From Actinomycetes bacterium (GTDB taxonomy: Bacteria; Actinomycetota; Thermoleophilia; RBG-16-64-13): a stretch of 64,000 nt of DNA. The notes beneath the pieces are model-generated. The model searched no databases, was not told the DNA's origin, and worked only from the letters and a program-made list of their open reading frames with translations. The DNA lies in the NCBI GenBank assembly GCA_024637035.1, contig JAGXFW010000008.1, positions 1 to 64,000 of the forward strand, given 5' to 3'. Positions 36,993-59,324 of this stretch are shown here, piece by piece. The translations under genes were made by a program, and so were the position numbers. The first letter of the stretch is position 1; every line of letters begins with the position of its first letter.

Positions 36993-38141
36993 CTATCGAC
37001 TGCCGAAAGGTGCGGGTGGCGCGGGGCGCAGCCCGAACAGGTGCTCCAGATGGTCGGCGATGCGCTCAGCCGCTCGGCCGTCGCCGTACGGGTTCACTGC
37101 GGAAGCCATGGCTCGGTAGGCATCCTCGTCGGTGAGCAGTCGGGTCAGCGAATCCCGGATAGCCGTGGTGTCGGTGCCCACCAACTGCGCGGTCCCCGCC
37201 TCGATCCCCTCGGGCCGCTCGGTGGTGTCGCGCATCACGAGCACGGGCTTGCCCAGGGTCGGCGCCTCCTCCTGGATCCCGCCGGAGTCCGTGATGACAA
37301 GGTCCACCGCCTTCATCAAGTGCACGAAGGGACGATAGGAGAGGGGTTCTGCGAAGACCACGCCCCGCACCTCGTCGAGGATGTCGCGGAAGATCTCGCG
37401 CACGACCGGGTTGAGGTGGATGGGGAAGATGAAGGTGGTGTCGGGTTGTTCGCGGCACACGTCCTTGATGGCCCGCGCGATCGATCGCATGGGCTCGCCC
37501 CAGCTCTCTCGACGATGCACGGTCACCAGCACTTTTCGCCCCGGCCTCGCTAGTGCTTCTTCCACGGTCGGCGGGAAGTGTGGAGGTTCGCCTTCGGCCG
37601 TGGTCAACAGCGCGTCTATGACGGTGTTCCCCGTCACGAGGATGCGCCCTTGTTCGGCGCCCTCGGCCAAGAGGGCCGAGCGGGCCGCGGGGGTCGGGGC
37701 CCAGAGCACCTCGGCCAGCCTGTCGGCGAGGCGGCGGTTGGCCTCCTCCGGGTAGGGGTTGTAGAGCGATTCCGTGCGCAACCCGGCCTCGACGTGAGCC
37801 ACCGGTATCTGTTGGTAGAAGGCGGCGAGCGCGGTGGCGAAGGTGGTGGTGGTGTCGCCGTGCACGAGCACCATGTCTGGAGCTTCGGCGGCGAGCAACC
37901 CCTCCATACCGGTGAGCACTGCCGTGGTGATATGGGTGAGCGACTGAGCCGTCTTCATGACGTTCAGGTCGTGGTCGACCGTGAGGTCGAATGCTTCGAT
38001 CACCTGGTCGAGCATCTCGCGGTGCTGCCCGGTGAGGCAGGTGACAACGCGGAACCCCTTGCGGCGGTGTAGTTCACGCACCACGGGAGCCATCTTGATG
38101 GCCTCGGGCCGCGTGCCGAAGCTCACGAAAAGCGTGCGCAT
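36993..38141 (-). CDS. wecB: UDP-N-acetylglucosamine 2-epimerase
   Basis: WecB converts UDP-GlcNAc to UDP-ManNAc, the ManNAc donor used by WecG/TagA enzymes. The 382 residues show GTRPEAIKMAPVV, HGDTTTTFATALAAFY, VAHVEAGLRT, PEEANRR and ITDSGGIQEEAPTLGKPVLVMRD. The start is ATG at 38141; the frame is open further upstream but without a good SD. It is convergent with the larB run and divergent from the polysaccharide operon. That operon encodes a WecG domain which could use its product. Confidence 0.95.
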   Translation of the reverse strand: MRTLFVSFGTRPEAIKMAPVVRELHRRKGFRVVTCLTGQHREMLDQVIEAFDLTVDHDLNVMKTAQSLTHITTAVLTGMEGLLAAEAPDMVLVHGDTTTTFATALAAFYQQIPVAHVEAGLRTESLYNPYPEEANRRLADRLAEVLWAPTPAARSALLAEGAEQGRILVTGNTVIDALLTTAEGEPPHFPPTVEEALARPGRKVLVTVHRRESWGEPMRSIARAIKDVCREQPDTTFIFPIHLNPVVREIFRDILDEVRGVVFAEPLSYRPFVHLMKAVDLVITDSGGIQEEAPTLGKPVLVMRDTTERPEGIEAGTAQLVGTDTTAIRDSLTRLLTDEDAYRAMASAVNPYGDGRAAERIADHLEHLFGLRPAPPAPFGSR

Positions 38142-38333
38142 TCCGTTCCCATTCCTTCGCCAGCAGTCAAGCCGTGATGTTACCAGTCCTGGACCACAGG
38201 CGCGCTCTGCGTGGCGACGCCTCGGGCCCGGTGGTGAGCCCATCGAGTGTGGTGCCTCCAAACCCCGTCTGATAGAATCGCGCCGATCTTCTCCCACTGC
38301 CCGCTGTGCCGGGCGAGCCCTCGGAGCGTTCAT

Positions 38334-38816
38334 ATGAGCCCGTTTCTCGATGATCGTGGGCGGCTGTTCGGCAAGGTGAGCGTTGTCGATCTCTTCGTCG
38401 TAGTGCTGCTCTTGGCTGCGGCCCTGTTCGGCTACGTGCGGTTCGCCGGCGGTGACTCGGATCCCGAGCGCTTCCGGCTCACCTTGGTCGTCGAACGTCT
38501 ACGCGATGCCAACATGGTGCAGTTCAAGGCGGGCGACCTCGCCAAGGACGATGGCGGCACCGAACTCGGCGACGTGGTCTCCGTCTCGATCCAGCCGACC
38601 ATCACCGAGGTGCCCACGGCAGACGGGCGTCTGATGTCGGCGGAGTCCATCGTGTACTCCGACGTGGTGATCGTGATCGAGGGGATGGGGCGGGCGTCGT
38701 CGTCGACCATAAGCGCCGGCAGCGTACCCCTACGGGTGGGACGGAACATCACGCTTATCGGCCCTGGCTACGAGGTGAGGGGACAGATCAGGGGCGTCGA
38801 GCTCATCGGCGAGTGA
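38334..38816 (+). CDS. DUF4330 family membrane-anchored protein
   Basis: The 160-residue protein has one N-terminal membrane span (VVDLFVVVLLLAAALFGYVRF) after MSPFLDDRGRLFGKVS. An extracytoplasmic beta-rich domain of the DUF4330 type follows (FRLTLVVERLRDANMVQFKAGD; LRVGRNITLIGPGYEVRGQI). DUF4330 proteins often begin polysaccharide loci, but their role is unknown. A possible -10 (TAGAAT) is at 38273-38278. Confidence 0.8.
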   Translation: MSPFLDDRGRLFGKVSVVDLFVVVLLLAAALFGYVRFAGGDSDPERFRLTLVVERLRDANMVQFKAGDLAKDDGGTELGDVVSVSIQPTITEVPTADGRLMSAESIVYSDVVIVIEGMGRASSSTISAGSVPLRVGRNITLIGPGYEVRGQIRGVELIGE

Positions 38817-38823
38817 TGCCGGC

Positions 38824-40881
38824 GTGGATCCTCTCCTGACTTCATCCGTATCGGGCCGACTCTATCTCGCCGCCGAGCGCCGGCTGAATCCCTTCTGGCA
38901 CGCATCCCTCATAGGCAGGCTGGTCGTTCGTCTGGGAGCCGTCCTCCGTGCTGTGCTGGGCGGAAGCTCCCTGCTCTCCCTCGCCGGGGCTCGTTCGCGC
39001 ACGCTCTCCGAACCCGCAGACTCGTTGGTGGGGCGGACTGCCGCCTCTCTGTATGGGGGAGCGCTCGCGCGCCTTGGTGGCAGCGCGCTTGGACGGACCG
39101 CTCGGGGGATCGGGGCGGGTGCCTCCGGGTCGCTCATGGGGGCCGGAGGGTCCGCGCGCCTGGCCGGATCGTTCGTGGCGGCTTTCGCCGTCGCGAAAGC
39201 CGCCACCTCCGGGGCCGCCACTAGCTCGATGCGGCCGCTGGAGATCGTGGCTCTGACCCTGACTGCTGCGGCGGGTCTCGTCTTGGTCGTGGCCGGATCG
39301 CGGGCGGTGCCGTTCCTCGGCGCGCGTCAGGCCCACCCCGCCGCGCGCACCGCGACGCCGGTCCTGACGCCGGCCCCGACGCCGGCTCCGACGCCGGCTC
39401 CGATGGACGCTCCCGCGACAGGCGCCGAACCGCCGGATGCTGCCACCGCAGAGGCGTCGCCGCTGGATGCCTCGTCGAGACGCGGTGTCGGCTCCCTGCT
39501 TCTATGGGCGATCGCTCTCGTGGCCATGGCTGTCATAGGTGTACTCGCCGCCGTTGCCGGCTGGCCGATGGGTTGGCTCCCCTTCTTCGCCGTGGTGGCC
39601 GTGGTACTCGCCGGCGCAGTGTTCTACCGGTCGGAGGCCCTCTTGCTTGTGATCGCGGCGTTTCCCTGGATCGACTGGGCTGCCCGGCGCGCCTTGGGGG
39701 GCGGAGGCTTGAGCGCGGTCTGGGACGAGGCCTTCCTCCTCGGGAGCTTCCTCGCCCTGTTCTTCGCCGTGGTCTTCACGCGTCGTACGAATCTGGTAGT
39801 CACGCCGATACTCGCCCCTCTCGCGCTGGCCGTGGTCGCCGCGATAGGCTCGGTGGTGCTGATGGACGTTCCCACGGAAGTGGGGGTGTTCGCGCTCAGA
39901 GTGACGTTCCAGCCGCTGCTTTTCTTCTTCCTCGCCCAGATGCTGCCGCGGGACCGCAGGTGGGTGAAGGCGGCGGTCACTGTATTCCTCGCGGCGAGCG
40001 TACTCCTCGCGCTGCATGGTCTTTTCCAGTATGTGACGAAGGCGCCGATGCCCGCGCGGTGGGTGGATGCGAGCGAGACCGCGATCACCACGCGCGCCTA
40101 TTCGATCGTCGAGAACCCCAACGGGCTTGGGGCGCTCCTCCTTCTTGGGGCGCTTCTCTCCGTGAGTGTCGCTCTGGCTCAGGTGCAGATCTACGCGCGT
40201 CTGGCCGCCGCGGCCGCGGCGGTCGTGCTTGCGGCGGGCTTGGCCGTGACATTCAGCAGAGGTGCTTGGCTCGGCTTCGTCTTCGGTGTGGTGTGCTACG
40301 CGATCCTCACGAACCGTCGGCTACTTGTGGCGATCTTCGCCGCCGCGGCAGCTTCGCCGTTCGTGGTCCCGTCGGTGCTGCTCGATCGGCTCACTTTCGC
40401 GCTCAGTCCAGACTATCTGGTGAAGAGCGCCGCCGCCGGACGGCTCTATATCTGGAGGGTCGCCCTGCAGCGGATAGCCGAGAACCCGTGGTTCGGCGTG
40501 GGTCTGGGCACGTTCGGAGGGACCAGTTCGTACCTGTTCGGCTATACCTCTCTGTGGGTCGACCAGTACTACCTCCAACTCGCCGCCGAGGGCGGGATCA
40601 TCCTGCTCCTCGCCTTCTTATGGCTGCTCCTGCGGGTGGCGAAGGGGATGGTCGCGGCTCACCGCGATCAGCCCGACCCGTTCCTTCGAGCCGTCGTGGC
40701 CGGCGCGCTCGGCGGGTGCGCCGCTGTAGCGTTCGCCAATCTCACGGCCAGTGTCTGGGAGACCTTGGTCGTGGGAGCCGGCTTCTGGTTCTTGGCGGGG
40801 CTCGCCACCGGCATCGGGCGCGACCCGGGCGCGCTTCTTCCCGCGCTCGCCGAGGCGGGCGCGAACACGGAGGAAGCATGA
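38824..40881 (+). CDS. O-antigen ligase/polymerase-like membrane protein with N-terminal extension
   Basis: The 685-residue protein is a polytopic membrane protein with an O-antigen ligase (Wzy_C) region: FSRGAWLGFVFGVVCYAIL, AAGRLYIWRVALQRIAENPWFGVGLGTFG and YYLQLAAEGGIILLLAFLW. It would polymerise repeat units or ligate a polysaccharide outside the membrane. Residues 1-215 are unusual: a Gly/Ala/Ser-rich region with Arg, then a proline-rich spacer (PVLTPAPTPAPTPAP) before the multi-span core. The start is GTG at 38824, 7 bp after the DUF4330 gene. Confidence 0.85.
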   Translation: MDPLLTSSVSGRLYLAAERRLNPFWHASLIGRLVVRLGAVLRAVLGGSSLLSLAGARSRTLSEPADSLVGRTAASLYGGALARLGGSALGRTARGIGAGASGSLMGAGGSARLAGSFVAAFAVAKAATSGAATSSMRPLEIVALTLTAAAGLVLVVAGSRAVPFLGARQAHPAARTATPVLTPAPTPAPTPAPMDAPATGAEPPDAATAEASPLDASSRRGVGSLLLWAIALVAMAVIGVLAAVAGWPMGWLPFFAVVAVVLAGAVFYRSEALLLVIAAFPWIDWAARRALGGGGLSAVWDEAFLLGSFLALFFAVVFTRRTNLVVTPILAPLALAVVAAIGSVVLMDVPTEVGVFALRVTFQPLLFFFLAQMLPRDRRWVKAAVTVFLAASVLLALHGLFQYVTKAPMPARWVDASETAITTRAYSIVENPNGLGALLLLGALLSVSVALAQVQIYARLAAAAAAVVLAAGLAVTFSRGAWLGFVFGVVCYAILTNRRLLVAIFAAAAASPFVVPSVLLDRLTFALSPDYLVKSAAAGRLYIWRVALQRIAENPWFGVGLGTFGGTSSYLFGYTSLWVDQYYLQLAAEGGIILLLAFLWLLLRVAKGMVAAHRDQPDPFLRAVVAGALGGCAAVAFANLTASVWETLVVGAGFWFLAGLATGIGRDPGALLPALAEAGANTEEA

Positions 40882-42110
40882 GAGGGAGGTCGGTCTCCCT
40901 GCGCGCCCTCCACGTCATCGGCGGCGGAGACGTGGGTGGGGCGATGTCGCACCTCCTCGCGCTGCTGCCGGCCCTCCGGTCGGCCGGGTGTGACGCACAC
41001 CTGCTGTGTCTTGGTGAAGGAGGGCTCGCCAGAGCGGCGCGAGACCTCGACCTGCCGGTTCGGGTGGTGCCGATGTCCGGACCCTGGGACCCGCGTGCCC
41101 TCCGCCCGGTGTGGCGCGCGCTCACCGGCCAACGCTGGGATGTGGTGCACACGCACGGCATGCGGGCGAACCTGCCGGTTCGAGCCATGTGGCGCGCCGG
41201 AGCCGGCTCTCACGCCGGGTGCCTGTTCGTCACCGTCCACTCGGACCTTGGTCTAGACTACGAGGATGCTCTGCGGGCCCGGCTCTTCCCGACTCTTGAC
41301 CGCTTCTCGGTCGGGGTGGTGGACCGCGTGCTCTGCGTGTCCGAGGACCTCAGGGATCGTCTCGTCGCGCGAGGCGGCGACCCCTCGCGGCTCCGCGTGG
41401 TGCGTTCGGGATTGACCGTGGTGGCCGGAGCGCCGACCGCCACGCAGGCGGGCGACGCGGGTATCGGCGGCCGCGCCGCCGCCGCCGTGGCCAACGAGGT
41501 GTGGGCGGGCGATGTCCCGCGCTTTGACGTCCCGCGCCTCGGGACGGTGGCACGCCTTGTGCCGGTGAAGGACATCGACCTGTTCCTCGAAGTCTCGACG
41601 CTCGTCGCGCGGGAGGTCGCCGGTCTTCGGGTGGCGGTCGTGGGCGAGGGTCCCGAACTGGACAGGCTCCGCGCGCGGGCGGCGGCGCTGGCACTGGGGC
41701 GGGTGGTAACCTTCCCCGGCGAAGTCCGGCCTGGGTCGGAAGTCGTGCGCGAGTTCGACGTGTTCCTGCTCACCTCGGTATCGGAGGGAGTGCCCATCTC
41801 TGTGCTCGAAGCCATGGCCGCAGGTGTCCCGGTGGTCGCCACCGATGTGGGAGGCATCTCGGAAGCGGTGGAGGACGGCGTGACCGGACTCCTGGTGACG
41901 CGAGACGCCGACCGTGAGGCGGTGGCGCGCGAACTGGCGGACGAGGTGGTGTCGCTGCTGAGCGACCCGGTCAAGAGGGAAGCCATGGGCAGCCGCGCCG
42001 CCGAGCGTGCCAGAAAGGTCTTCGGGGCGGAAGCCGCGGCGGCGGCGACTCTGGCCGAGTACAGATCGTGCCTCCGGGTTCGGGGCCACGGCGTCGAGCG
42101 GAGCGGGTGA
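40878..42110 (+). CDS. Glycosyltransferase family 4
   Basis: The 410-residue GT-B enzyme starts in an ATGA overlap with the polymerase gene. The N-domain has LHVIGGGDVGGAMSHLLAL and DVVHTHGMRANLPVR. The C-domain has the donor-binding GTVARLVPVKDIDLFLE, VVGEGPELDRL and the EX7E motif in TSVSEGVPISVLEAMAAGVPVV. It probably adds a sugar to the lipid-linked repeat unit in the cytoplasm; the sugar is unknown. Confidence 0.9.
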   Translation: MRGRSVSLRALHVIGGGDVGGAMSHLLALLPALRSAGCDAHLLCLGEGGLARAARDLDLPVRVVPMSGPWDPRALRPVWRALTGQRWDVVHTHGMRANLPVRAMWRAGAGSHAGCLFVTVHSDLGLDYEDALRARLFPTLDRFSVGVVDRVLCVSEDLRDRLVARGGDPSRLRVVRSGLTVVAGAPTATQAGDAGIGGRAAAAVANEVWAGDVPRFDVPRLGTVARLVPVKDIDLFLEVSTLVAREVAGLRVAVVGEGPELDRLRARAAALALGRVVTFPGEVRPGSEVVREFDVFLLTSVSEGVPISVLEAMAAGVPVVATDVGGISEAVEDGVTGLLVTRDADREAVARELADEVVSLLSDPVKREAMGSRAAERARKVFGAEAAAAATLAEYRSCLRVRGHGVERSG

Positions 42111-42116
42111 TCGGCG

Positions 42117-43397
42117 GTGTTACGCGGACACGACATCGTATGCGTCTCTTCCCTCGACTGGGACGCTCACTGGACCAGCAAGCAGCAGATCATGAGTCGC
42201 CTGGCCCGCACGAACCGGGTGCTCTACATCGAGGAGCCCGTGACCATGCTGGCGCCGTTCCGGGTGCGGGAACGATGGTCGCGTTGGGGGTCGGTGGTCC
42301 CTCGTCTGCGTCGTGTCTCGTCGGGCATGTGGGTGCTCACGCCGCCCCCGCTGCTGCCCTTCGGCAATCTCCAACCCTGGTTGAACCGGGCCAATCAGCG
42401 GGCACTGGGCTGGTATATCGGCTGGGCCGTACATCGCCTCGGCTTCCGCGACCCTCTGTTCTGGACCTATCTGCCCACCAGCGTGCATCTGCTCTCCCGC
42501 TTCCCCGCGTCCCCAGTGGTGTATCACTGCGTGGACGAGCACTCGGCCTTCCCTGGGTTCGTGTCACCCGACGTGGTGCGGGCCTACGACGACGAACTCA
42601 CCGCGCGCGCGGACCTCGTGATCACCACGGCGGCCAACCTTCGGGCCTCACGATTGCACCTGAATGGATGCACACATCACGTGCCCAACGCCGCCGATGT
42701 GGACCACTTCGGTGCCGCCCTCGATCCGGCCCTGGCCATCCCCGCAGACGCGGCCGCGATACCTTCGCCGCGCATCGGCGTGATCGGTGTGCACGACGAG
42801 CGGTTGGACGAGGCGGCCATCGAGGCCATCGCCGCACACGACCCCAGCTGGAACGTCCTCCTGGTGGGGCCGGTCCGTCCCGGGGACGTCGATGAGGCCC
42901 GCCTGCGTCGGCTACCGAACGTGCACTTCCTCGGCGGCCGGCCCTTGGCCGAGCTTCCCGCGTACCTCAAGGCGCTCGACGTCGCCCTGATCCCGTACAA
43001 GCTGAACGAACTGAGCCGGAACATCTTCCCTCTGAAGCTGTTCGAGTACTTGGCGGGTGGGGTCCCGGTGGTATCGGCGGCCCTCCCGGAACTCGCGCAT
43101 ATGGGGGAGCACATCTTGCTTGCGCGAACGCCGACGGAATACCCAGCATTGGTGAGCCGCGCTCTCGCGGAGGATTCGCCTGCTCGGCGCGCCGAACGGG
43201 TGGCGCTGGCGGCTGGCAACACCTGGGACGATCGGGTGGAAGAGATATCGAGTCTGGTGGAGACTACCCTTTCGCACCGGGTGGCTGGCCGGGCGATGCC
43301 CCATGCCTGCCCGCATGGCCGGGAAGACGATGCCATCCTCGGTCGGATCCCGGTGGGCACCGCCGCCCACGACCACGACTCGGAGGAGCGTGCGTGA
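42117..43397 (+). CDS. Glycosyltransferase (TuaH-like)
   Basis: The 426-residue GT-B protein begins MLRGHDIVCVSSLDWDAHWT and continues with SRLARTNRVLYIEEP, VYHCVDEHSAFPG, VGPVRPGDVDEARL and ALIPYKLNELSRNIFPLKLFEYLAGGVPVVS. This arrangement is typical of glycosyltransferases in exopolysaccharide and teichuronic acid loci. It starts at GTG 42117 and overlaps the next gene by 4 bases (GTGA). Confidence 0.86.
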   Translation: MLRGHDIVCVSSLDWDAHWTSKQQIMSRLARTNRVLYIEEPVTMLAPFRVRERWSRWGSVVPRLRRVSSGMWVLTPPPLLPFGNLQPWLNRANQRALGWYIGWAVHRLGFRDPLFWTYLPTSVHLLSRFPASPVVYHCVDEHSAFPGFVSPDVVRAYDDELTARADLVITTAANLRASRLHLNGCTHHVPNAADVDHFGAALDPALAIPADAAAIPSPRIGVIGVHDERLDEAAIEAIAAHDPSWNVLLVGPVRPGDVDEARLRRLPNVHFLGGRPLAELPAYLKALDVALIPYKLNELSRNIFPLKLFEYLAGGVPVVSAALPELAHMGEHILLARTPTEYPALVSRALAEDSPARRAERVALAAGNTWDDRVEEISSLVETTLSHRVAGRAMPHACPHGREDDAILGRIPVGTAAHDHDSEERA

Positions 43398-45544
43398 GGA
43401 TACTCCTGCCCACCATCCGCGACCCCGGCCAGATCGGGGGCACCACCACCCATCTGGACATGCTGACCAGGGGCTTGGACGAGAACGGCCACGAGTCGAG
43501 GGTGTTCTACCTCGGCGGTGCCATCCCCCGAGCTGTCGGCCTGGGTGGGGTCGTCTGGCCGGCCGGGATGCTCAATCGACTGCACCGCGGATGGGGCATG
43601 GTGTACGCGGCCGTCGTTCGTGGGAGGCTCCTCGCGAGCGCTGTGGAGCGCGAGCTGGCCCGAGCCCTTGCCGCCGGCGAGCCGTGGGATGTCTTGAACG
43701 CTCAGGAGGTCTATTCGGTTCCCAGTCTGCGCGCGGTGGCCGACCGCTACGACATCCCGCTCGTGCTCACGCTGCACGGGTACCCGCTCTTCGAGTCGAT
43801 GTCGGAGGGGTACACAACTGCCTCTCCCGGTGGGCGTTCGTTCCTCATGGGGTCCGAGCTTCGAGCTCTTCGCATCGCCGATGCCGTGATCACTGTGGAC
43901 AGCAGGCTGCATCGACACGTGCTCCGGCTTGCCCCCGAGCGATCCTCGACCACTACGTCGCTGATGAACTTCATCGATACGTCGTCGTATCAGCCGGGTG
44001 TCGAGGGGCGCGAGGAGTTGCGTCGCGCGTGGAACGTGCCCGAGGGCGCGACCGTGCTCTTCTGCCCGCGCCGATTGGTGAAGAAGAACGGTGTGACGTC
44101 GCCCTCGCGGGCGCTGGCCACCATGACGCCCCAGCAGCGTGGACGCTTCCTGCTGCTGCACGCCGGTGAGGGCGGCGAGCGGGAGGAGATCGAACGAGTG
44201 GTCCGTGAGGAGGGTCTGGGGCACGAGGTCCGGCTACTCGGTGGGCAGGACCGCGACGCGATACTCCAGCTGTATCGCCTGGCCGACATCGTCCTGGTGC
44301 CTTCGGTCCACAGCGAGAACGTCGAAGAGGCCACATCGCTTTCGGCCCTGGAGGCGATGGCCTGCGGGCGTCCCCTTATCGCCGGTGCGGTGGGAGGCTT
44401 GGCCGAGATGGTCGAAGATGGCAAGAACGGGCTCCTCGTGCCCGCGGCCGAACCCTCGGCCCTGGCTGCCGCGATCATGCGGTTGGCCGACGACCCCGAC
44501 TTGGGGATTCGTCTGGCACATGAAGCCCGCACATACGTGGTTCTGAACCACTCGCATCTTCACGCGGCCTCGCGCTTCGTCGACGTGTACGGCAAGGCGG
44601 CGGCTCGGCAGGGGTCGGACCAGATGCCGTCAGAGCTTGGGGGGCCGCGACCCGGCGGACCCACGGTCGACGGCGCCACGCCGCCCCATGCGGCCTCAGG
44701 CGGCCCCGCACAGCACGCCGACGCCATCGTCGCCGGCCTCCCCCTGATCTCCGTGCTCGGGTCGCCACTGCACGGGGTCGGGTTGGAAGAGGCCGCCGCC
44801 ATCGTCCTCGGTTGGGCGCGAGATGATACTGCTCCCGTCCACGGTGATGAGTCGCGGCTCGGCGGTCGGCGGGGGTCGCCCCGCGTGGCGACCTCGTTCA
44901 ATCCCGAGCTGGCAGTGAAGGCTCAGCGGGATCCCCTGGTCGCGGAGGCGCTGCTCGCCGCGGACCTGCGCTACCCGGATGGAGTGGGGGTCGTGTGGGC
45001 GGCTGGCCGGCGAGGCGCGGTCGGCTTGGAACGGGTGCCCGGGATCGAGCTCGCGGAGCGCGTGCTCGAGAAGGCGGCGGCAGAGAGCCTTTCGGCCTAT
45101 CTGCTCGGCGCCGCACCGGGGGTGGCGGAGCAGGCAGCCGAAGCGCTGCGCGCCCGCATGCCGGGCCTCGATATCGTCGGAGCTCACCACGGATATTTCT
45201 CGGCGACCGATGAGACGGCGATACTTGCTGGGATCCGTGACTCCGGTGCCGTCCTACTTCTCGTGGCCCTTGGGGCGCCTCGCCAAGAGCTGTTCATCCA
45301 CAGGCATCTGGGTGACCTCGGGGTGCGGGTCGCCTTGGGTGTGGGGGGCAGCTTCGACGTATGGTCTGGTCGCGTCCGCCGGGCGCCGGGGTGGACCCGG
45401 ACTCTGGGCGTAGAGTGGCTCTACCGGCTCGTCACCGACCCTCGTCGGGCTCGGCGGCAGCTCGCTCTACCGCTGTTCGCCTGGCGTGCCCTTCGTGACG
45501 TGGCTTCCGACTACCACCCGCCGCGCGGATCTCGGGGGCGCTGA
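43394..45544 (+). CDS. Fusion of a GT4 glycosyltransferase and a WecG/TagA/CpsF (GT26) domain
   Basis: The 716-residue protein has two enzymes in one chain. Residues 1-400 are a GT4 enzyme (IGGTTTHLDMLTRGLDENGH; PRRLVKKNGVTSPSRAL; SVHSENVEEATSLSALEAMACGRPLI). After a Gly/Pro-rich linker (about 405-450), residues 460-700 are a WecG/TagA domain: SFNPELAVKAQRDPLVAEAL, RYPDGVGVVWAA, RVPGIELAERVLE, VALGAPRQELFIHR, GVGGSFDVWSGRVRRAP and GVEWLYRLVTDPRR. TagA enzymes transfer ManNAc to GlcNAc-lipid, consistent with wecB nearby. The start is GTG at 43394 with a GGAGGAGC SD. Confidence 0.9.
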   Translation: MRILLPTIRDPGQIGGTTTHLDMLTRGLDENGHESRVFYLGGAIPRAVGLGGVVWPAGMLNRLHRGWGMVYAAVVRGRLLASAVERELARALAAGEPWDVLNAQEVYSVPSLRAVADRYDIPLVLTLHGYPLFESMSEGYTTASPGGRSFLMGSELRALRIADAVITVDSRLHRHVLRLAPERSSTTTSLMNFIDTSSYQPGVEGREELRRAWNVPEGATVLFCPRRLVKKNGVTSPSRALATMTPQQRGRFLLLHAGEGGEREEIERVVREEGLGHEVRLLGGQDRDAILQLYRLADIVLVPSVHSENVEEATSLSALEAMACGRPLIAGAVGGLAEMVEDGKNGLLVPAAEPSALAAAIMRLADDPDLGIRLAHEARTYVVLNHSHLHAASRFVDVYGKAAARQGSDQMPSELGGPRPGGPTVDGATPPHAASGGPAQHADAIVAGLPLISVLGSPLHGVGLEEAAAIVLGWARDDTAPVHGDESRLGGRRGSPRVATSFNPELAVKAQRDPLVAEALLAADLRYPDGVGVVWAAGRRGAVGLERVPGIELAERVLEKAAAESLSAYLLGAAPGVAEQAAEALRARMPGLDIVGAHHGYFSATDETAILAGIRDSGAVLLLVALGAPRQELFIHRHLGDLGVRVALGVGGSFDVWSGRVRRAPGWTRTLGVEWLYRLVTDPRRARRQLALPLFAWRALRDVASDYHPPRGSRGR

Positions 45545-45547
45545 GTT

Positions 45548-47146: not shown

Positions 47147-47375
47147 TCCCGCTCCCGCGCCACGTGGCGTTCGCTCGTGCAACGCCGCCGCCGCTTGCCG
47201 GTCGATGCGGCTTCCGCGCACTCCCGTGCGACTCCCACCCAGGGTCGGCGTCGTATCTCTGGCTCCCTCGGACTCGTTCGAAGAACCGCATATCCATGCC
47301 CGGTCGGCACCCGCTTGGCTGGGTGGTCGGGCAGGAACCTCGGGCTTTGCCGAGAAATTGAACAGGATGGTCGTC
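47147..47375. other. Intergenic region ahead of the CWB2 gene series
   Basis: About 230 bp without a supported gene. The reading frame of the next gene stays open here, but the signal peptide fixes a start near 47376. No clear promoter, terminator or known riboswitch was seen. Confidence 0.5.
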
Positions 47376-51025: not shown

Positions 51026-52768
51026 ATGGTCGGTTCGGTTCGGTGGATGGCAGTCCTGCGCGTGGCGGTCGTGTTTGTCTTGCTAGTCGCGTTCGTGGTT
51101 CTTCTTGTGTCATTGGTACCGACGACCGCCTCGGCCGTGGGACCTGTCACAACGACGGCTGACACCACCGACCCGTCAACGAGCACCACTGACACCACCA
51201 ACTCATCAACGAGCACCACCGACACCTCGGCCACCACGTCGACCACCGACACCACTCTCTCTCCCACCACCACTACGACGGCCCCAGGGCGCGTCGATAC
51301 CTACTTCACCGGCTCTGATCGCTACGCGACAGCGATCCTGGTGTCCGAGAAGGCATACCCTTCAGGGGCGCCCGCTGTGATCTTGGTCAAAGGCACCGAC
51401 TTCCCCGATGCTCTCGCGGCCGCCCCTCTCGCCGTGGCGTACGGAGGCCCTGTCATCCTCGTGCCGCCCACCGGTCTGACTCAGCCTGTCAAGGACGAAC
51501 TGAGGCGCCTCAAGCCCGACACCGTCTTCTTCATCGGGCTGCCGATAAGCCTGCGCGATGTGGTCTCGCGCGTCCTGCCCGCCGCAGACGTGCGCACGGT
51601 CATCGGACGCGATCGCTACGAGACCGCGGCGCTGATCGCAGGCGAGCTCAAGGCGAAGGTCGGCGCGATATCGAAGATCGTTCTCGTCCCCGGGGACAAG
51701 TTCCCCGATGCTCTCGCCGTGGCACCCCTGGCGGCCCAGAAGGGCTGGCCGATCCTGCTGACTCCGCAGGCCGGGCCACTGCCGGCGGTCACCTCGGCCA
51801 GGATCCAGACCCTGGGCGCGACCTCCGCCTTGGTGGTGGGTACCTACGTCAAGCCGCCGCTCCCAATACCCGCGGCCAACGTCGTGGCCAAAGTAGGCCG
51901 CGACCGCTACTACACCGCTGCCATGGCGGCTGAGTACTCGAAGTCGATGGGGTCCACCTTCGTGCACATCGCCCTGGCTACGGGCGAGAACTACCCGGAT
52001 GCGTTGGTGATCGGACCGTACCTCGCGATGGACTCGGGGATACTGCTGCTCACGCGCTCCACGTCCTTCTCGCCGCCTGTCAACAACCTCTTGGCCACGT
52101 ACCAAGACGATCTCAAGATGGTCGACTTCGTGGGGATGGCCAAGAGCTCCCTCCTCAGCAAGCGTCTGGTCACCGTGCCGATCCCGCCGCCCCCTCCCGT
52201 CTATCCGGAGCTCAGATGGGGCTCCACGGGTGCGGCGGTCTCGACCTTGGAGGCGAAGCTATCCGCGCTCCGGTACGACATCGGTCGGGCGGACGGGGTG
52301 TACGACGAGGCCTTGAGAGACGCGGTCATGGCCTTCCAGAAGGCCGAGTGGCTCAGCCGCGACGGTGTAGCCGGCATCGCCGTGTGGAAGCGGCTCGAGA
52401 CCGCCCGCACTCCGGCGGCCAAATACTACTCGAGCTCCACCCACATCGAGATCGACCTCTCCCGGCAGGTGCTCTTCCTGGTATCGCAGGGCAGGGTAGT
52501 GAAGATCCTCCCCGTCTCCACGGGCACCTCCGCCACCCGCACCCCCGCTGGCTCCTTCCATATCACGCGGAAGCTCGACTACTGGCGTAGGAGTTCCCTC
52601 GGGCTGCTGTACATGCCCTCGTATTTCTATGGAGGTATCGCGATCCACGGTAGCTATTCGATTCCCAACTACCCGGCGAGCCACGGGTGCGTGCGCATAC
52701 CGGTGTGGGCTACCGCGGGCATCTACTACCAGATGCCGGTGGGCATGAGCGTTCGCGTGTACTACTAG
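51026..52768 (+). CDS. Secreted L,D-transpeptidase with CWB2 and peptidoglycan-binding domains
   Basis: The 580-residue protein has a signal segment (VAVVFVLLVAFVVLLVSLVP), a Thr/Ser/Asp-rich linker (TTADTTDPSTSTTDTT), three CWB2 repeats (about 90-380) and a PG_binding_1 domain (LRWGSTGAAVSTLEAKLSAL). It ends in a YkuD L,D-transpeptidase domain with the catalytic motif HGSYSIPNYPASHGCVRIP. Such enzymes form 3-3 cross-links or attach proteins to peptidoglycan. The ATG has the SD gaggagagccc. Confidence 0.93.
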   Translation: MVGSVRWMAVLRVAVVFVLLVAFVVLLVSLVPTTASAVGPVTTTADTTDPSTSTTDTTNSSTSTTDTSATTSTTDTTLSPTTTTTAPGRVDTYFTGSDRYATAILVSEKAYPSGAPAVILVKGTDFPDALAAAPLAVAYGGPVILVPPTGLTQPVKDELRRLKPDTVFFIGLPISLRDVVSRVLPAADVRTVIGRDRYETAALIAGELKAKVGAISKIVLVPGDKFPDALAVAPLAAQKGWPILLTPQAGPLPAVTSARIQTLGATSALVVGTYVKPPLPIPAANVVAKVGRDRYYTAAMAAEYSKSMGSTFVHIALATGENYPDALVIGPYLAMDSGILLLTRSTSFSPPVNNLLATYQDDLKMVDFVGMAKSSLLSKRLVTVPIPPPPPVYPELRWGSTGAAVSTLEAKLSALRYDIGRADGVYDEALRDAVMAFQKAEWLSRDGVAGIAVWKRLETARTPAAKYYSSSTHIEIDLSRQVLFLVSQGRVVKILPVSTGTSATRTPAGSFHITRKLDYWRRSSLGLLYMPSYFYGGIAIHGSYSIPNYPASHGCVRIPVWATAGIYYQMPVGMSVRVYY

Positions 52769-52786
52769 GGCCCGAACGCGGTTTCG

Positions 52787-52812: not shown

Positions 52813-52916
52813 ACCGGGACCGTGGGGGTGGCGGCCGATCGAGTAGTGTCTTCTGGGTCTTTCACAGCCTGACGAGACCGCTCATCTGCCCGCCGGACGC
52901 CCACCATCGTCTTTGC

Positions 52917-52962: not shown

Positions 52963-53087
52963 CGTTCCAGTGCAATCCGCACTAAAGCACGTGTTGTTGT
53001 TTGTCGATGAGGCGAGTGCAGGTGTTCGCTTGGCGTCTGCGGCTGGACAAGGTCCGACCGCCGGCGGAACGGTTGTGAGGAGTATGG

Positions 53088-54542
53088 ATGAGCATCACGT
53101 TTCGAGTGGGTTCGAGTCGGCGCATCCTGGTGGCGGCCCTGCTCGCGCTGGTGATCATCGTAGGCCTGGCCGTGTGGCCGGGCGCTCAGACTCCGTCGCA
53201 TGCGGCGGTCTACGACGCTGACGAGCTCGGAGTCGTCCGGTTGATCAATCAGTACCGGGCGAGTCATGGGCTGGGGGCGCTGCAGGTGTCGGATGCCCTC
53301 TCCAAGGCGAGCACTCGACACAATCTCGATATGGGGCGCTACAACTTCATCTCCCACTCCAGCGAGAGCTCTGACTACTTCCCCTCCGGTTATCAGTTCT
53401 GGCAACGACTCGCCGCCATGGGGTACGGCAGCGGGGTCTTGGGCGAGAACATCGCCGCGGGTCTTCCGGTGATGACCGCGGAATCCGTGTTCGCCGCGTG
53501 GAAGAGCTCGCCGGGACACAACAGCCAGATGCTCGGTGCCGACTACAAGGTCATCGGGGTCTCGTGCGACTACGTGGCCGGTTCGGAGTTCGGGGTCTAC
53601 TGGACCACGGACTTCGGCGGCTCGGTCGATCCCACCGCCCGGCCGGTGGATAGTGCGGGGGTCCGGACGACGATAACCGGTCAAGACCGGTACCAGACCG
53701 CCGTGATGGTCTCTCAGAAAGCATTCCCGAAAGGCGCCCCGGTTGTAGTGGTCGTAAAGGGGGACGACTTCCCCGACGCCCTGGCGGCGGCCCCGTTGGC
53801 GGCAGCCTTCGGCGGTCCCGTACTACTGACGCCCTCCAGTGGTCTCACCACGGCCGTGAAGGCGGAACTCAGGCGCCTCGGTGCGCACACCGTCTTCTTC
53901 ATCGGGCTGAAGGATTCCGTGAAGAGCGGTATCGTGAGCGCCCTTCCGAATGCGACCATCACGACCATCCGCGGGAGCGATCGCTACGAGACCGCGTCTC
54001 TGATCGCGGGGCGGCTGCGCGTCAAGCTTGGAGCAATCGGCACTGTGGTGCTCGTTCCAGGGGACCGGTATCCCGATGCCCTCTCGGTGGCTCCGCTGGC
54101 GGCGAAGAAGGGCTGGGCGATACTCCTCACCCCGCAATCGGGACGAATCCCCGCGGTGACGGCACGCACGATCCAGAGTCTTGGCGCCACGTCGGCACTG
54201 GTCGTGGGCACCTGGGCCAAGCCGGCCTTGGCGGCCTCGCGGGTGACCTACAAGGTCGGGAACGACAGATACCACACGAGCGCTCTCGTCGCCGCGTATG
54301 CCGCGAGCCAGGGACTCTCATTCAGGCACGTAGCCTTGGCCACCGGAGAGAACTACCCGGACGCCCTCGTGGTGGGGCCGTATCTCGTTGGAGACGGCGG
54401 CATCCTTCTGCTCACTCAGAGCAACGGGATCCCCACCCCGGTCGCAGACCAGCTCGCGGCTCATCGAGTCGGGGTTTCGAGCCTCGATCTCGTCGGGCTC
54501 CCCGGCAGCGTCTCGACCCGAGCCAAGATGATCCTGCAGTAG
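53088..54542 (+). CDS. Secreted CAP/SCP-domain protein with triple CWB2 module (copy 1)
   Basis: The 484-residue protein has a signal peptide (ILVAALLALVIIVGLAVWPGAQ). The CAP domain (about 42-180) shows VVRLINQYRASHGLGALQVS, the putative active-site His in FISHSSESS, GENIAAG and SSPGHNSQML. Three CWB2 repeats follow (about 195-484). Bacterial CAP proteins are secreted and of uncertain activity; some are sporulation- or wall-related. The ATG has the SD gaggagtatgg. It is a paralogue of the next gene. Confidence 0.92.
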   Translation: MSITFRVGSSRRILVAALLALVIIVGLAVWPGAQTPSHAAVYDADELGVVRLINQYRASHGLGALQVSDALSKASTRHNLDMGRYNFISHSSESSDYFPSGYQFWQRLAAMGYGSGVLGENIAAGLPVMTAESVFAAWKSSPGHNSQMLGADYKVIGVSCDYVAGSEFGVYWTTDFGGSVDPTARPVDSAGVRTTITGQDRYQTAVMVSQKAFPKGAPVVVVVKGDDFPDALAAAPLAAAFGGPVLLTPSSGLTTAVKAELRRLGAHTVFFIGLKDSVKSGIVSALPNATITTIRGSDRYETASLIAGRLRVKLGAIGTVVLVPGDRYPDALSVAPLAAKKGWAILLTPQSGRIPAVTARTIQSLGATSALVVGTWAKPALAASRVTYKVGNDRYHTSALVAAYAASQGLSFRHVALATGENYPDALVVGPYLVGDGGILLLTQSNGIPTPVADQLAAHRVGVSSLDLVGLPGSVSTRAKMILQ

Positions 54543-54975
54543 CGGGGCCGTACGGCTTCTCCTTGCGGTGGCGATCGCGCCACATGACGACTTCCTCACC
54601 CGACTCTAATCTAGCCGTCACGTGCACTTCCTATTCTCGTGACATGAGTGTGGCAAGTCCGATCACCACGACAAACGCACGATCGTCATGTGCCTGGCGT
54701 GCGAGATGTGCCCGGCGTGCGAACGTTCCTTCGATCCCCCCCAGCCTGGTTTGACTGCAGAGCTGGCCCCCGCAGAGCCGTGGTCGTTCGGCTCCATCCC
54801 CAGCGATTCCCCAGCGGATACGTGTGCCCGACGCCTCTTCAAGGCTTTTCGTAACTCGAAAGGGAATTGCACGTTAAAGAAATCGGAGCGGTCCCCCGAT
54901 AGGACAGATGGGGACGATGACGAGCGAGGCCTGCCGAGTGCTCCAGGGGGCCGAGACGGTGAAGAGGCGGATGTT
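54543..54975. other. 433-bp leader region between the two CAP genes
   Basis: No separate gene is supported. The next gene's frame is open back to 54688, but that extension has a non-secretory, Cys-rich start and is probably untranslated. A hairpin GTCCCC (54891-54896) / GGGGAC (54910-54915) and further G/C-rich complementary segments lie in the last 90 bases, so a structured 5' leader is possible. No known riboswitch class was matched. Confidence 0.45.
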
Positions 54976-56454
54976 ATGCAAGCGAAGAGGAAGCGACCGG
55001 ACATGATTGCAAGACGAGGACGGCGAGGGTCGCTGATCGTGGCTCTCTTCGCAACGTTGGCGCTGTTGATCCTGCTCATGGCCCCGGCCATGGCATGGGC
55101 GACGGGCACGACCGCCCCGACCGCCACGGAAGAGGTCGAATTCGTCCGGCTGATCAACCAGTATCGGGTGGCCAATGGAGCCGGCCCGCTCTTGGTCTCC
55201 GACCCGGTGGCGCTCGCGGCGTTCAAGCACAATCGGGACATGGCCACGTACGGGTTCTTCTCCCACACCACCGCGAAGTCGAGCGTCTTCCCCGTCGGTT
55301 CCCAACCATGGGACCGCATGAGGGCCACGGGATACAACTACAACACCACCATGGCCGAGAACCTCGCTGGTGGATACCCCACCGCAGCGGAAGCGTTCAA
55401 TGCGTGGAAGAACTCCCCGGGCCACAATCGGAACATGCTCGACCCGGACTTCAAGGTCATCGGTGTGTCGCTCTTCTTTGCCCCGGACACGTCCTACGGC
55501 TGGTTCTGGACGACCGACTTCGGCGCCTACGTCGATCCGAGCGCGCACGGCACGAGCACGGGTCCCGCCCCTAACTACAGCACCATCAAGGGTGATGACC
55601 GATACCTCACGGCCATAATGATCTCTCAGAAGGCGTACCCGAAGGGTGCTCCGGCGGTGTTCCTGGTGAAGGGAGACAACTTCCCCGACGCCCTGGCGGC
55701 CGCGCCTTTGGCCACCGCGTACGGCGGCCCGGTGATCCTCACTCCATCAACCGGACTCACACCGGCCGTGAAGGACGAACTCAAGCGTCTGAACCCCAAC
55801 AAGATCTTCTACATCGGTCTGCCGGCGAAGCTCGAGTCCGAATTGCAGGCTTTGCTCCCGAACGCGATCATCAAGACGGTACGCGGGAAGGACCGCTACG
55901 AGACCGCGACCATGCTCGCCGACGAACTGAAGAACAAGCTCGGCCGCATCGACAAAGTGGTCATCACCCCGGGCGACAAGTTCCCCGATGCCCTCTCGGT
56001 GGCTCCCTTGGCCGCGTCGAAGGGTTGGGCCATCATGCTTGCCCCGGCGACCGGGCCGCTGCCGGGAGTGACGTCGGCGAAGATCAAGGAGCTCGGCATC
56101 ACGAAAGCACTGGTGGTGGGCAGCTACGTCAAGCCTCCGGCCACCGTGACAGAAGTGGTCTACAAGGTGGGCAAGGACCGCTATCAGACCAGCGCGCAGA
56201 TCGCCGTGTACGCTAAGTCCCAGGGCCTCTCCTTCGCCCACGTGGCTTTGGCGACAGGCGAGAACTACCCCGACGCCCTCGTCGTCGGGCCCTACCTGGT
56301 GCCCCAGAAGGGCATCCTTCTGCTCACCCAGTCCACATATTTGCCGGGGTACATCAACGATCAGCTCATCGCCAACCGAGACGGCATCGACCAGTTGGAC
56401 TTCGTAGGCCTGCCGAACGGCGTGACCGGTCAGACGAAGGCCCTCCTGCAGTAG
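54976..56454 (+). CDS. Secreted CAP/SCP-domain protein with triple CWB2 module (copy 2)
   Basis: The 492-residue protein starts at ATG 54976 (MQAKRKRPDMIARRGRRG), followed by a signal segment (LIVALFATLALLILLMAPAMA). The CAP domain has FVRLINQYRVANGAGPLLVS, FFSHTTAKS, AENLAGGYPTAAEAFNAWKN and SPGHNRNMLDPDFKVIGV. Three CWB2 repeats follow, with NFPDAL, KFPDAL and NYPDAL cores. It is a paralogue of the gene at 53088 but clearly diverged in sequence, so the duplication is not recent. Confidence 0.92.
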   Translation: MQAKRKRPDMIARRGRRGSLIVALFATLALLILLMAPAMAWATGTTAPTATEEVEFVRLINQYRVANGAGPLLVSDPVALAAFKHNRDMATYGFFSHTTAKSSVFPVGSQPWDRMRATGYNYNTTMAENLAGGYPTAAEAFNAWKNSPGHNRNMLDPDFKVIGVSLFFAPDTSYGWFWTTDFGAYVDPSAHGTSTGPAPNYSTIKGDDRYLTAIMISQKAYPKGAPAVFLVKGDNFPDALAAAPLATAYGGPVILTPSTGLTPAVKDELKRLNPNKIFYIGLPAKLESELQALLPNAIIKTVRGKDRYETATMLADELKNKLGRIDKVVITPGDKFPDALSVAPLAASKGWAIMLAPATGPLPGVTSAKIKELGITKALVVGSYVKPPATVTEVVYKVGKDRYQTSAQIAVYAKSQGLSFAHVALATGENYPDALVVGPYLVPQKGILLLTQSTYLPGYINDQLIANRDGIDQLDFVGLPNGVTGQTKALLQ

Positions 56455-56509
56455 GCTGACCAACCGCTCTCGGCTCACTACCTGCCGAAAGCCGATCACC
56501 CTCCCCATC

Positions 56510-56537
56510 GGGGCCGCGCTTCTGTGAGTGCGGCCCC
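56510..56537 (+). terminator. Hairpin after the second CAP gene
   Basis: GGGGCCGC (56510-56517) pairs with GCGGCCCC (56530-56537). It lies in a 380-bp gap (56455-56834) that otherwise shows three imperfect copies of a ggttctg-gagtgc element (about 56517-56577) and a TAGACT -10-like site at 56776. No gene is supported in the gap. Confidence 0.5.
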
Positions 56538-56834
56538 GGTTCTGCGAGTGCAGCCCGGTTCTGAGCATGCGGGCGGTCAATGGCCACCGCGCTCGAGCAG
56601 GAGTAGGCCGGGCCATGGAGAAGGAGACCAAGCGACCGGAGTGCGCGAACGTGGCGATCCAGCCAGCCATGCCGATCACCGCGTAGTGCCCACAGGGCTC
56701 GACTCGCCGCTTCCGGCTCTGGGAGCCGGTTCGGCGTGTTCGACTCTTGGCCCCCGACTCCCACGACTCCGGCGGTGTAGACTTTCGGCATTGTCCGGCG
56801 CGTCCGGCAGAGCAGTCAAGGAGCATCGATACTC

Positions 56835-59324
56835 ATGTTGAACCCACGCCTTCCCCTCGTCCGTACGGGCTTCGCCCTCGTGTTGCTGGCCAGTCTTGTG
56901 GTCGCGTCTCTGGCGGCTCCGCCCCCGGCCGACGCCGCCTCAGAGTTCAAGTTCACAGGCCGCGGCTACGGCCATGCCGTCGGGATGAGCCAATGGGGCG
57001 CTTGGGCTGCGGCCAAGGATGGCGTGGGCTTCCGCGAGATCATCGCCCATTACTACCCCAACACCACGCTCGACGCGCTGTCGCCCGCGAACCCGGATGT
57101 CACGGTGAAGCTTTCGAGCCAGCCGTGGCTCAGCGTCTACACGATCACGCAGTACTTCGCCGGGGTCGGTCTGTACCCGGTGGGCGGTCCGATGACCCTG
57201 GTCAAGTACGACGGCTCGGGAGAGTCCCAAGAGACGATACCCATGGGTTCCTTCCTTTCCGCCTCTCAGGAGGGCTCAGGGGTCTACGTGACCACTCCGG
57301 CCGGGAAACAGGGTCCGTTCACAAAGGTCGAAGCCCGTCCGGCGGTCGGTGGGCGGGTGACGGTGCAGTTTCGCACCAGCGCCACCTCATCCCCGCTCGA
57401 CGCGCGCGAGTATTGGGGCAAGATCCGTCTACAGCCCTCTTCGATATCCGGCAAACTCCATACCTACAACATCGTCCCCCTTGAACTCTATCTTCGCAGC
57501 ATCGGCGAGGTCGAGTACGACTGGGGTCAGCCGAGCAGCGGCAACTATGCCCTGGAGGCCGTCAAGGCTCAGGCCGTGGCCGCCCGCTCGTATGCCATGA
57601 CCCACAAGGACCCCTACCTCCAGGACAATCAGTATCACCAGGTGTATCTCGGGTACACGGGACGCTCGAAGATCGGGGCGGCCAGGCCGTTCGAGCTGCT
57701 CTATCCGGGCATCCCGGCGGCGGCCGAGCAGACCGCCGGTCTCGTGGCACGGTACAACGGCAAGATCATCTCAACCTTCTTCTCGTCGCACTCGGGTGGG
57801 TGGACCTCGGATACCTCCATCTGGCAGTCGAACCCCACTGCCCACACGCCGGAACCCTACCTGATCGCCAAGGCCGACCCCTGGAGCCTGAAGGCCCCGT
57901 TGAGCAACCCGGGGTTCAACTGGACGTTCACCATCTCGGCCTCGTCTCTCTCGAGCGCGGTGGCGGGGATGAGGGACATCTACGGTCTGTCCGTGAACGT
58001 GGGCAGCGTGAGCGAGGTGGAGGTGTGGTCCAGAGACACGAGCGATCCGACGAGCCACGCCCGCACCATCAAGCTCACCGGGGACAGGGGGAGCGCGGTC
58101 GTCGGCGCCGAGCGGTTCCGGAGTCTATTCGGGTACGACAAGATGCGATCCACTCTCATCCTCGACATCAACGGCTCCTCCGGCGTGGTGGCCGAGAAGT
58201 GGCTCTCTCACGTCGTCGTCACCACCGGGGCGCCGGGCTCCGTTCCCAGTGGGGACCAACCGCTTACCCCGGTCGTCTTCCAAACGAAGACCATCAATGC
58301 TTCCTCTATCAACGTGCGGAGCGGGCCGGGCACGAACTATCCGGTAGTCGAGGTCCTGGGGCCGAACGTGCCGATAACCGTCTACGCGTGGCAGCACGGT
58401 CTGGCTGTTGGTAGCGAAGAGCGATGGTACCGGCTCGACAAGCCCATCTACACTACCCTCACCGGCGCCGACCGCTACGAGACCGCCATCCTGGTCTCCA
58501 AGCAGGCCTACCCCTCCGGAGCCCCTGCCGTCGCTCTGGTCAAAGGTGACGACTTCCCCGACGCCCTCTCCGCCGCCCCCCTGGCCTATGCCTTCGGCGG
58601 CCCTGTCATCCTCACCCCCTCGGGTGGTCTCACGTCGGCAGTCAAGGCCGAACTCAAGCGCCTCAAGCCCGGGAAGGTCTTCTTCATCGGCCTTCCTGAG
58701 TCAGTGCGGCCTAGTCTGGTGGATGCCGTCGGTAGTGCGGATATCGTCACTATCCGCGGAAAAGATCGCTACGAGACCGCCGCTCTGCTCGCCGCGGAAC
58801 TGAAGACGAAGGTCGGCACTGTCGAGAAGTTCGTACTCGCCCCCGGGAACAAGTTTCCCGACGCCCTCTCCGTGGCCCCCCTGGCCGCCAAGAAGGGCTG
58901 GCCTATCCTCCTCACCCCCCAGGCATCCGGGTCTCTTCCCAAGGTCACCTCTGCCCAGATAAAGGCGCTCGGTGCCACCTCGGCCCTGGTGGTGGGCACC
59001 TATGAAAAGCCCCCCGGGATCCAGGTGGTCTCCAAGGTCGGCAAAGACCGCTACGACACCAGTGCCCTCATCGCCGAGTACGGCAAGTCCTTGGGACTCT
59101 CCTTCGCCCACCTGGCCCTGGCCACAGGGGAGAACTATCCCGATGCCTTGGTGGCGGGTCCCTACCTGGCGAAGGGTGGGGGGGTGTTGTTGCTCACGCA
59201 TCCGGACTACGTGCCGTCGTACGTGAGGACGCAGCTCGTCAACAACCGTGATGCGATGACTTGGGTGGAGCTCATAGGCATGGCCGACAGTGTGATCCCG
59301 GTGATCGTGAAAGCCCTGATGTAG
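56835..59324 (+). CDS. Secreted SpoIID/LytB-domain protein with SH3b and triple CWB2 modules
   Basis: The 829-residue protein has a signal peptide (TGFALVLLASLVVASLAAPP), then a SpoIID region (FTGRGYGHAVGMSQWGAWAAA; YLRSIGEVEYDWGQPS; LEAVKAQAVAARSYAM; FFSSHSGGWTSDTSIW). SpoIID is a lytic transglycosylase acting on denuded glycan. Residues about 485-535 are an SH3b domain (INVRSGPGTNYPVVEVLGP) and 536-829 are three CWB2 repeats. The order is unusual in that the GYGHAVGMSQWG segment, which normally closes the domain, lies at the N-terminus. The CWB2 DNA is nearly identical to that of the amidase gene at 49.1-49.9 kb. Confidence 0.92.
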   Translation: MLNPRLPLVRTGFALVLLASLVVASLAAPPPADAASEFKFTGRGYGHAVGMSQWGAWAAAKDGVGFREIIAHYYPNTTLDALSPANPDVTVKLSSQPWLSVYTITQYFAGVGLYPVGGPMTLVKYDGSGESQETIPMGSFLSASQEGSGVYVTTPAGKQGPFTKVEARPAVGGRVTVQFRTSATSSPLDAREYWGKIRLQPSSISGKLHTYNIVPLELYLRSIGEVEYDWGQPSSGNYALEAVKAQAVAARSYAMTHKDPYLQDNQYHQVYLGYTGRSKIGAARPFELLYPGIPAAAEQTAGLVARYNGKIISTFFSSHSGGWTSDTSIWQSNPTAHTPEPYLIAKADPWSLKAPLSNPGFNWTFTISASSLSSAVAGMRDIYGLSVNVGSVSEVEVWSRDTSDPTSHARTIKLTGDRGSAVVGAERFRSLFGYDKMRSTLILDINGSSGVVAEKWLSHVVVTTGAPGSVPSGDQPLTPVVFQTKTINASSINVRSGPGTNYPVVEVLGPNVPITVYAWQHGLAVGSEERWYRLDKPIYTTLTGADRYETAILVSKQAYPSGAPAVALVKGDDFPDALSAAPLAYAFGGPVILTPSGGLTSAVKAELKRLKPGKVFFIGLPESVRPSLVDAVGSADIVTIRGKDRYETAALLAAELKTKVGTVEKFVLAPGNKFPDALSVAPLAAKKGWPILLTPQASGSLPKVTSAQIKALGATSALVVGTYEKPPGIQVVSKVGKDRYDTSALIAEYGKSLGLSFAHLALATGENYPDALVAGPYLAKGGGVLLLTHPDYVPSYVRTQLVNNRDAMTWVELIGMADSVIPVIVKALM

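Follow-up and report, generated by a model that had tools for sequence, protein, structure and literature searches.

Results

CWB2 modules stand in the place of SLH modules at a conserved wall-polymer locus

The locus studied here is a 22-kb stretch (positions 36993–59324) of a 64,000-nt window of contig JAGXFW010000008.1 (assembly GCA_024637035.1), in which genes for a wall polymer are followed by six genes for secreted proteins carrying three CWB2 modules each. Our analyses indicate that it is probably the secondary-cell-wall-polymer locus of its family, found here in an uncultured actinobacterial genus that exchanged its SLH/pyruvate anchors wholesale for CWB2. We refer to the window's genome as G000 and to the second genome of the same genus, a sister species, as G001; other G numbers denote other genomes. 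The G000 assembly (3.57 Mb, 34 contigs) is 100% complete and G001, a metagenome-assembled genome, is 99% complete; both are drafts. All genes named in a sequence-only reading of the locus were recovered by Pfam and NCBIfam searches: a polymer operon and then six triple-CWB2 proteins with M23, amidase, L,D-transpeptidase (LDT), CAP (twice) and SpoIID heads. A chance finding is remote here. The physical tie that this reading saw between a polymer operon with a MurJ-type flippase and CWB2 wall enzymes stands as well, the arrangement being kept in G001. In each of the six proteins, three stretches score above the curated CWB2 cut-off (Pfam; whole-protein E 1e-37 to 2e-45).

The family sample comprised 18 genomes, with the genus of the window represented by G000 and G001. 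In 11 relatives, csaB lies directly after the gene for a GT4-WecG fusion protein, and these genomes, having both genes, encode 37–93 SLH domains. In G000 and G001, csaB is absent from this position. Indeed, PF04230 (polysaccharide pyruvyltransferase) has no match anywhere in either genome, and SLH domains number 0 genome-wide in both. CWB2 domains number 78 in G000, 60 in G001 and 0–11 in the other family genomes. Thirty or more SLH domains were found in 11 of 11 genomes with csaB and in 0 of 7 without it (Fisher p 3e-5, the relatedness of the genomes being uncorrected). The csaB genes of the relatives are syntenic and homologous, their products showing 52–61% identity to the G003 protein.

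The setting of the exchange is well conserved. The polymer genes and the order M23-amidase-SpoIID recur across relatives (G003 has no MurJ at the locus), and the flanks share GGDEF, Ddl, amidohydrolase and AIR-carboxylase family genes, with Golvesin and DUF1015 genes on the opposite side where it was read. By Pfam, SLH takes the place of CWB2 on three heads of G003 (M23, amidase and SpoIID) and, in G010, on the same three and on CAP. With the anchors masked, the window's heads are 50–67% (M23), 41–56% (amidase) and 42–58% (SpoIID) identical to those of SLH relatives; against SLH-bearing homologues, the values are 47–56% for CAP, 60% for LDT and 38% for a subtilase. For every head compared, the anchor sits at the same end, N or C, in the window's protein and in the relative. 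In most cases the similar part of the head reaches to about 20 residues or less from the CWB2 boundary; SpoIID has an intervening linker that matches SH3 weakly.

Direction of the change

In a tree of rpoB sequences chosen by homology, G000 and G001 group with G005/G013 and then with G010/G014, all four of which bear SLH and are without CWB2. All lie within a well-supported family, and its deepest branch, G003/G008, likewise has SLH and csaB. Because this tree nests the genus among SLH lineages, the ancestor more likely had SLH with csaB, and a single switch within the genus would be enough. Concatenated trees of the polymer genes and of the heads resolve the exact sister of G000 poorly and were used as consistent only. 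Members of the family's clade B have one to four minor CWB2 proteins alongside SLH. Specifically, G016 has csaB, SLH on its M23, amidase and SpoIID proteins and CWB2 on its LDT; carrying both modules, it shows that both can serve in one wall.

We therefore propose the following course for an event that would have taken place within the genus. In the ancestor, the polymer would have carried pyruvate added by CsaB and served as ligand for the SLH trimers of M23, amidase, SpoIID and other proteins. The window's genus would then have lost csaB and all recognisable SLH domains, and triple CWB2 cassettes, a minor module that the family already had, would have moved into the SLH position, keeping to the same end of each head.

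A different arrangement was seen in G006. This genome is without csaB and has few SLH domains, its SpoIID and CAP heads bear CE2_N-type modules, and at the same locus a GT4-GT-WecG triple fusion (GT, glycosyltransferase) lies in one frame (L064:1-3327). The arrangement is possibly a second loss of csaB and SLH, and the CE2_N modules possibly a third type of anchor.

The polymer and its proposed link to CWB2

The WecG half of the fusion protein, the single WecG match in G000, keeps the TagA residues N39, D65, R83, Y137, Q167, E168, R214, R221 and R224, with T37 changed to S. The catalytic residues of TagA are described in PMC6493773; among these, N39, D65, R83, Q167, E168 and R221 are kept in all compared family genomes, which with one exception have S in place of T37. 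Because the WecG half keeps these residues, synthesis of a GlcNAc-ManNAc lipid is the likely first step, and the ManNAc is likely supplied by WecB. In the pathway that we propose, a TagO-like enzyme encoded on contig C6 would start GlcNAc-PP-undecaprenol, WecB would provide UDP-ManNAc, the TagA/WecG half would attach ManNAc and GT4 enzymes would extend the chain. Going by their protein families, the MurJ-type flippase would export the product, Wzy would polymerise it and an LCP protein would ligate it to peptidoglycan. That LCP protein is the only one in G000 and is likewise encoded on C6, outside the locus. G000 has two PF00953 proteins, one of which, beside the atp operon, scores better to wecA than to mraY and under the curated cut-off, and two full-length MurJ proteins, one being the locus copy. 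No UDP-ManNAc dehydrogenase was found in the stretches of G000 examined, the whole genome not having been searched for one. In G001, the csaB slot (L053:3766-8003) holds a UDP-ManNAc-type UDP-sugar dehydrogenase, a second WecB and a glycosyltransferase, and the G001 polymer may contain ManNAcA.

CWB2 probably now holds the enzymes on an unpyruvylated or otherwise modified form of the operon's polymer. We put forward more tentatively, and at less than an even chance, a broader proposal: that SLH and CWB2, the pair of modules known to anchor S-layers in Gram-positive walls, can replace one another on a single TagA-type polymer, with CWB2 reading a pyruvate-independent form or part of it, and that CsaB loss together with takeover by a minor resident module re-anchored the whole surface proteome.

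Several observations weigh against an exchange of SLH for CWB2 on this polymer. TIGR03609 (CsaB) is the best family for all csaB proteins scanned, and most of them fall slightly below its curated cut-off of 213 (G012 scores 221, nine other full-length proteins 189–210). G007 encodes 24 SLH domains and G009 encodes 15, and PF04230 matches nothing in either genome; either SLH is not strictly dependent on csaB in the family or csaB was missed in these two genomes. The outgroup families are mostly without SLH and without CWB2, so the root state is set by parsimony, and the genus is known from two genomes only. Of the 26 CWB2 proteins of G000, 19 had no homologue with SLH in the limited set that was searched. 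CWB2 is present without the fusion gene in G002, G007 and G009, which speaks against its binding the operon's polymer. Finally, the G001 operon is partly replaced, one glycosyltransferase having no orthologue and another being poorly matched, and the CWB2 cassettes of G000 and G001 are nevertheless 87–90% (about 88%) alike. Since the operon is altered and the cassettes are alike, CWB2 may read something outside the operon's variable part.

The fusion gene itself occurs in most of the 18 family genomes, and in G003, G005, G008, G010, G012 and G014 it occurs without CWB2. Together with the three genomes that have CWB2 and no fusion, these six mean that strict co-occurrence of polymer genes and CWB2 fails, which goes part of the way to refuting the sequence-only reading on its own terms.

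These distributions bear on a reading that accepts the swap of anchors but has CWB2 bind peptidoglycan or a different polymer and takes the operon for an SLH-era relic that is no longer the source of the ligand. The CWB2 proteins of fusion-less family members and the differing glycosyltransferase sets of G000 and G001 fit it, as does the finding that 20 of the 26 CWB2 proteins of G000 are encoded away from the locus. Against it, the genome still has the polymer operon, directly next to the hydrolase genes (gaps of 25–67 bp), and a wall polymer is what CWB2 binds in C. difficile (Clostridioides difficile; PMC4973711). In addition, CWB2 proteins lie directly beside a ManNAc-derivative polymer operon in two genomes of an unrelated family. 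In G158 (L200:174-9092), genes for a dehydrogenase, an oxidoreductase, a hexapeptide acetyltransferase, a DegT aminotransferase, WecB, DUF354, Wzz and Wzy directly precede the CWB2 genes, and in G374 an epimerase and Wzy are also beside CWB2 genes. The ManNAc-uronic-type operon of G158 hints independently at a tie between CWB2 and polymer. On balance, we regard the relic reading as unlikely, although it is the alternative that fares best.

CWB2 itself is ordinary in Actinomycetota, occurring in 59 of 397 genomes of the phylum sample. First-look counts gave 323–360 CWB2 candidates per genome in G210, G287 and G297 (family f32); C. difficile has 29 such proteins.

Module exchange and the origin of the cassettes

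The LDT protein bears on whether modules were exchanged or whole genes replaced. Its head in G000 is 59% identical to that of the SLH-LDT of G005 and 41–46% identical to those of the CWB2-LDTs of G016 and G007. Because it is nearer to an SLH-LDT than to the CWB2-LDTs, module exchange rather than gene replacement is indicated, and an imported CWB2-LDT gene as seed of the swap was rejected. CWB2-LDT genes of the same layout do exist in G016 and G007, as would be expected had imported CWB2 enzyme genes displaced the SLH enzyme genes with no exchange of modules. However, the heads keep the order of the locus and are clearly similar to SLH-bearing heads, no CWB2-LDT from beyond the genus comes as near to the LDT head as the SLH-LDT of G005 does, the heads tree groups G000 with G005/G003/G010 (exact placement poorly resolved) and cassettes are alike only as far as CWB2 extends. 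Whole-gene replacement is thus very improbable.

The cassettes of the amidase, SpoIID and a distant subtilase of G000 share 86–90% DNA identity over about 710–750 bp, and other locus cassettes share 67–74%; the similarity among cassettes ends where CWB2 ends. The high identity of these three suggests that the cassettes spread partly by copying from gene to gene. When compared with 41 cassettes of other families in the phylum (clostridial sequences not included), the family's CWB2 cassettes form one clade (100/100). A recent clostridial or other actinobacterial donor of CWB2 is disfavoured by this single clade, within the limits of that sample.

The sequence-only reading had proposed a CWB2-polymer anchoring system like that of C. 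difficile PSII, arisen independently or transferred from Clostridia and dedicated to peptidoglycan remodelling. As in C. difficile, a MurJ/MviN homologue, a polymerase and glycosyltransferases adjoin CWB2 proteins (PMC5065235). Nonetheless, PSII is not borne out as a model: the locus has no mannose-supply genes and is without pgm2, manC, uppS2 and LCP, having WecB/TagA-type genes and the corresponding route instead (PMC4973711, PMC5065235). Transfer of a whole system is at odds with an operon and heads that are syntenic and conserved across the family with SLH and csaB, and with the single family clade of cassettes described above. Nor is CWB2 dedicated to wall remodelling. The 78 CWB2 domains of G000 are spread over 26 proteins, three per protein, many of which have no wall-enzyme head; among the 20 encoded outside the locus, heads include RCC1, NHL, subtilase, solute-binding and Ig-rich types. 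We consider this account very improbable. An assembly or binning artefact, in which contamination or gaps would explain the CWB2 genes or the missing csaB and SLH, draws on the draft state of both genomes and the metagenomic origin of G001 and can practically be set aside, because the two separate assemblies agree, the csaB slot lies closed within a contig of 180 kb and the flanking genes are 84–90% identical between G000 and G001.

In a contig search with the fusion protein, G001 was the sole true relative recovered. As a separate observation on the G000 proteins, RCC1 beta-propeller repeats are joined to triple CWB2 cassettes on contigs C4 and C7, with at least three such proteins clustered on C4.

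Layout of the locus

The features of the locus are collected in Table 1.

Table 1. Features of the polymer and CWB2 locus, in window positions
Feature	Position	Strand	Evidence and relatives
UDP-GlcNAc 2-epimerase (WecB/MnaA)	36993..38333	-	PF02350 E 7e-117; TIGR00236 wecB 472 bits (cut-off 210)
DUF4330 protein	38334..38816	+	PF14221 E 3e-24; orthologues in same place in relatives
Wzy_C polymerase/ligase	38824..40881	+	PF04932 E 1e-14; 52-65% identity in relatives
GT4 glycosyltransferase	40878..42110	+	PF00534/PF13439
Glycosyltransferase	42117..43397	+	PF13692 E 2e-11; 60-69% in relatives; missing in G001
GT4-WecG/TagA fusion	43394..45544	+	PF03808 (WecG) E 1e-59; TagA 7mpk match E 9e-47
Empty csaB slot (3 bp, from stop of fusion gene to start of MurJ)	45545..45547	.	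csaB here in 11 relatives
MurJ-type flippase	45548..47146	+	PF03023 E 3e-99; TIGR01695 murJ above cut-off
M23 peptidase head + C-terminal CWB2 x3 (about 48117-48938)	47205..48980	+	Pfam; orthologous head in relatives with SLH x3
N-terminal CWB2 x3 (about 49168-49983) + Amidase_3	49006..50958	+	Orthologue with N-terminal SLH; matches Cwp6 5j72
N-terminal CWB2 x3 (about 51308-52135) + PG_binding_1 + L,D-transpeptidase YkuD	51026..52768	+	Head 59% to SLH-bearing LDT of G005
CAP head + C-terminal CWB2 x3 (about 53676-54497)	53088..54542	+	Pfam
CAP head + C-terminal CWB2 x3 (about 55588-56409)	54688..56454	+	Pfam
SpoIID/LytB head + weak SH3_3 + C-terminal CWB2 x3 (about 58461-59279)	56835..59324	+	Head orthologous to SLH-bearing SpoIID

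The epimerase gene is divergent from the other genes, and its true start is probably near 38150, which is the start in relatives (these align from residue about 58–67). The open reading frame of the first GT4 gene is listed from 39504, overlapping Wzy in a different frame; its real start is near 40878. The polymer genes overlap or abut, with gaps of −4 to +7 bp, and the gaps along MurJ-M23-amidase-LDT are 58, 25 and 67 bp. Because these latter gaps are short, part of the hydrolase set may share a transcript with the polymer genes. A search for promoters and terminators gave no excess over shuffles, and an Rfam scan returned no RNA but two tRNAs.

In C. difficile, a P[ILV][ILV][LV] motif in each CWB2 repeat is needed for anchoring. 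Among the six window proteins, this motif is present in repeat 1 of all six, in repeat 2 of three and in repeat 3 of none, where G stands for P. Slightly relaxed, it is found in 34 of the 78 CWB2 repeats genome-wide, compared with 7.6% in shuffles.

Beyond the locus, window positions 59471-62385 encode two proteins, one with a Golvesin domain and one of 612 residues that matches no Pfam family; homologues of both lie beside DUF1015 at the locus of relatives.

Discussion

Two known systems frame this locus. CsaB makes the pyruvylated ManNAc that is bound by SLH trimers, as established in B. anthracis and P. alvei (PMC4973711, PMC6081394). The TagO-TagA-MnaA-CsaB system of Bacillus anthracis and Paenibacillus alvei resembles that of G000 in its WecB/MnaA-type epimerase, its TagA-type ManNAc transferase and its TagO-like enzyme, and sister lineages have csaB and enzymes with three SLH modules at the same locus; the window's genus differs in being without csaB and recognisable SLH and in having CWB2 in their place. 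The C. difficile PSII/AP locus is similar in having triple CWB2 at one end of the protein and adjoining polymer genes with a MurJ/MviN homologue (PMC4973711). It differs not only in the genes listed above but also in that TagA-type genes are not reported for it, and in the window enzymes rather than S-layer proteins adjoin the operon. C. difficile is moreover reported to be without TagO (PMC4973711), unlike G000 with its TagA-like domain and wecA-like PF00953 protein.

Bacillus subtilis LytC/CwlB likewise carries CWB2 on an amidase wall hydrolase (PMC5817068). CWB2 is not described there as a replacement for SLH. The Geobacillus stearothermophilus proteins SbsB (SLH) and SbsC (non-SLH) bind different wall polymers. 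They are similar to our case in that related bacteria use either anchor type on wall polymers (PMC12175726), but they are unrelated S-layer proteins rather than the same enzymes with exchanged modules, and CWB2 is not involved. SLH and CWB2 have been likened to one another as trimers binding anionic wall polymers, with a common origin suggested (PMC6081394). Neither module is new. In the portions of the literature returned by a search on CWB2, SLH and csaB together, we found no description of such an anchor swap, and within those portions a module swap at one locus is without published description.

The locus would thus provide a natural module-swap experiment with which to test what SLH and CWB2 anchors recognise. 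The swap bears on the ligand of CWB2 outside C. difficile, and the matched pairs, with the same head and the same operon but a different anchor and ligand enzyme, permit direct tests of ligand specificity. For the organism, it is a case of a bacterium re-anchoring its surface proteins, in which a pyruvylation gene is present or absent in step with module type at one syntenic locus.

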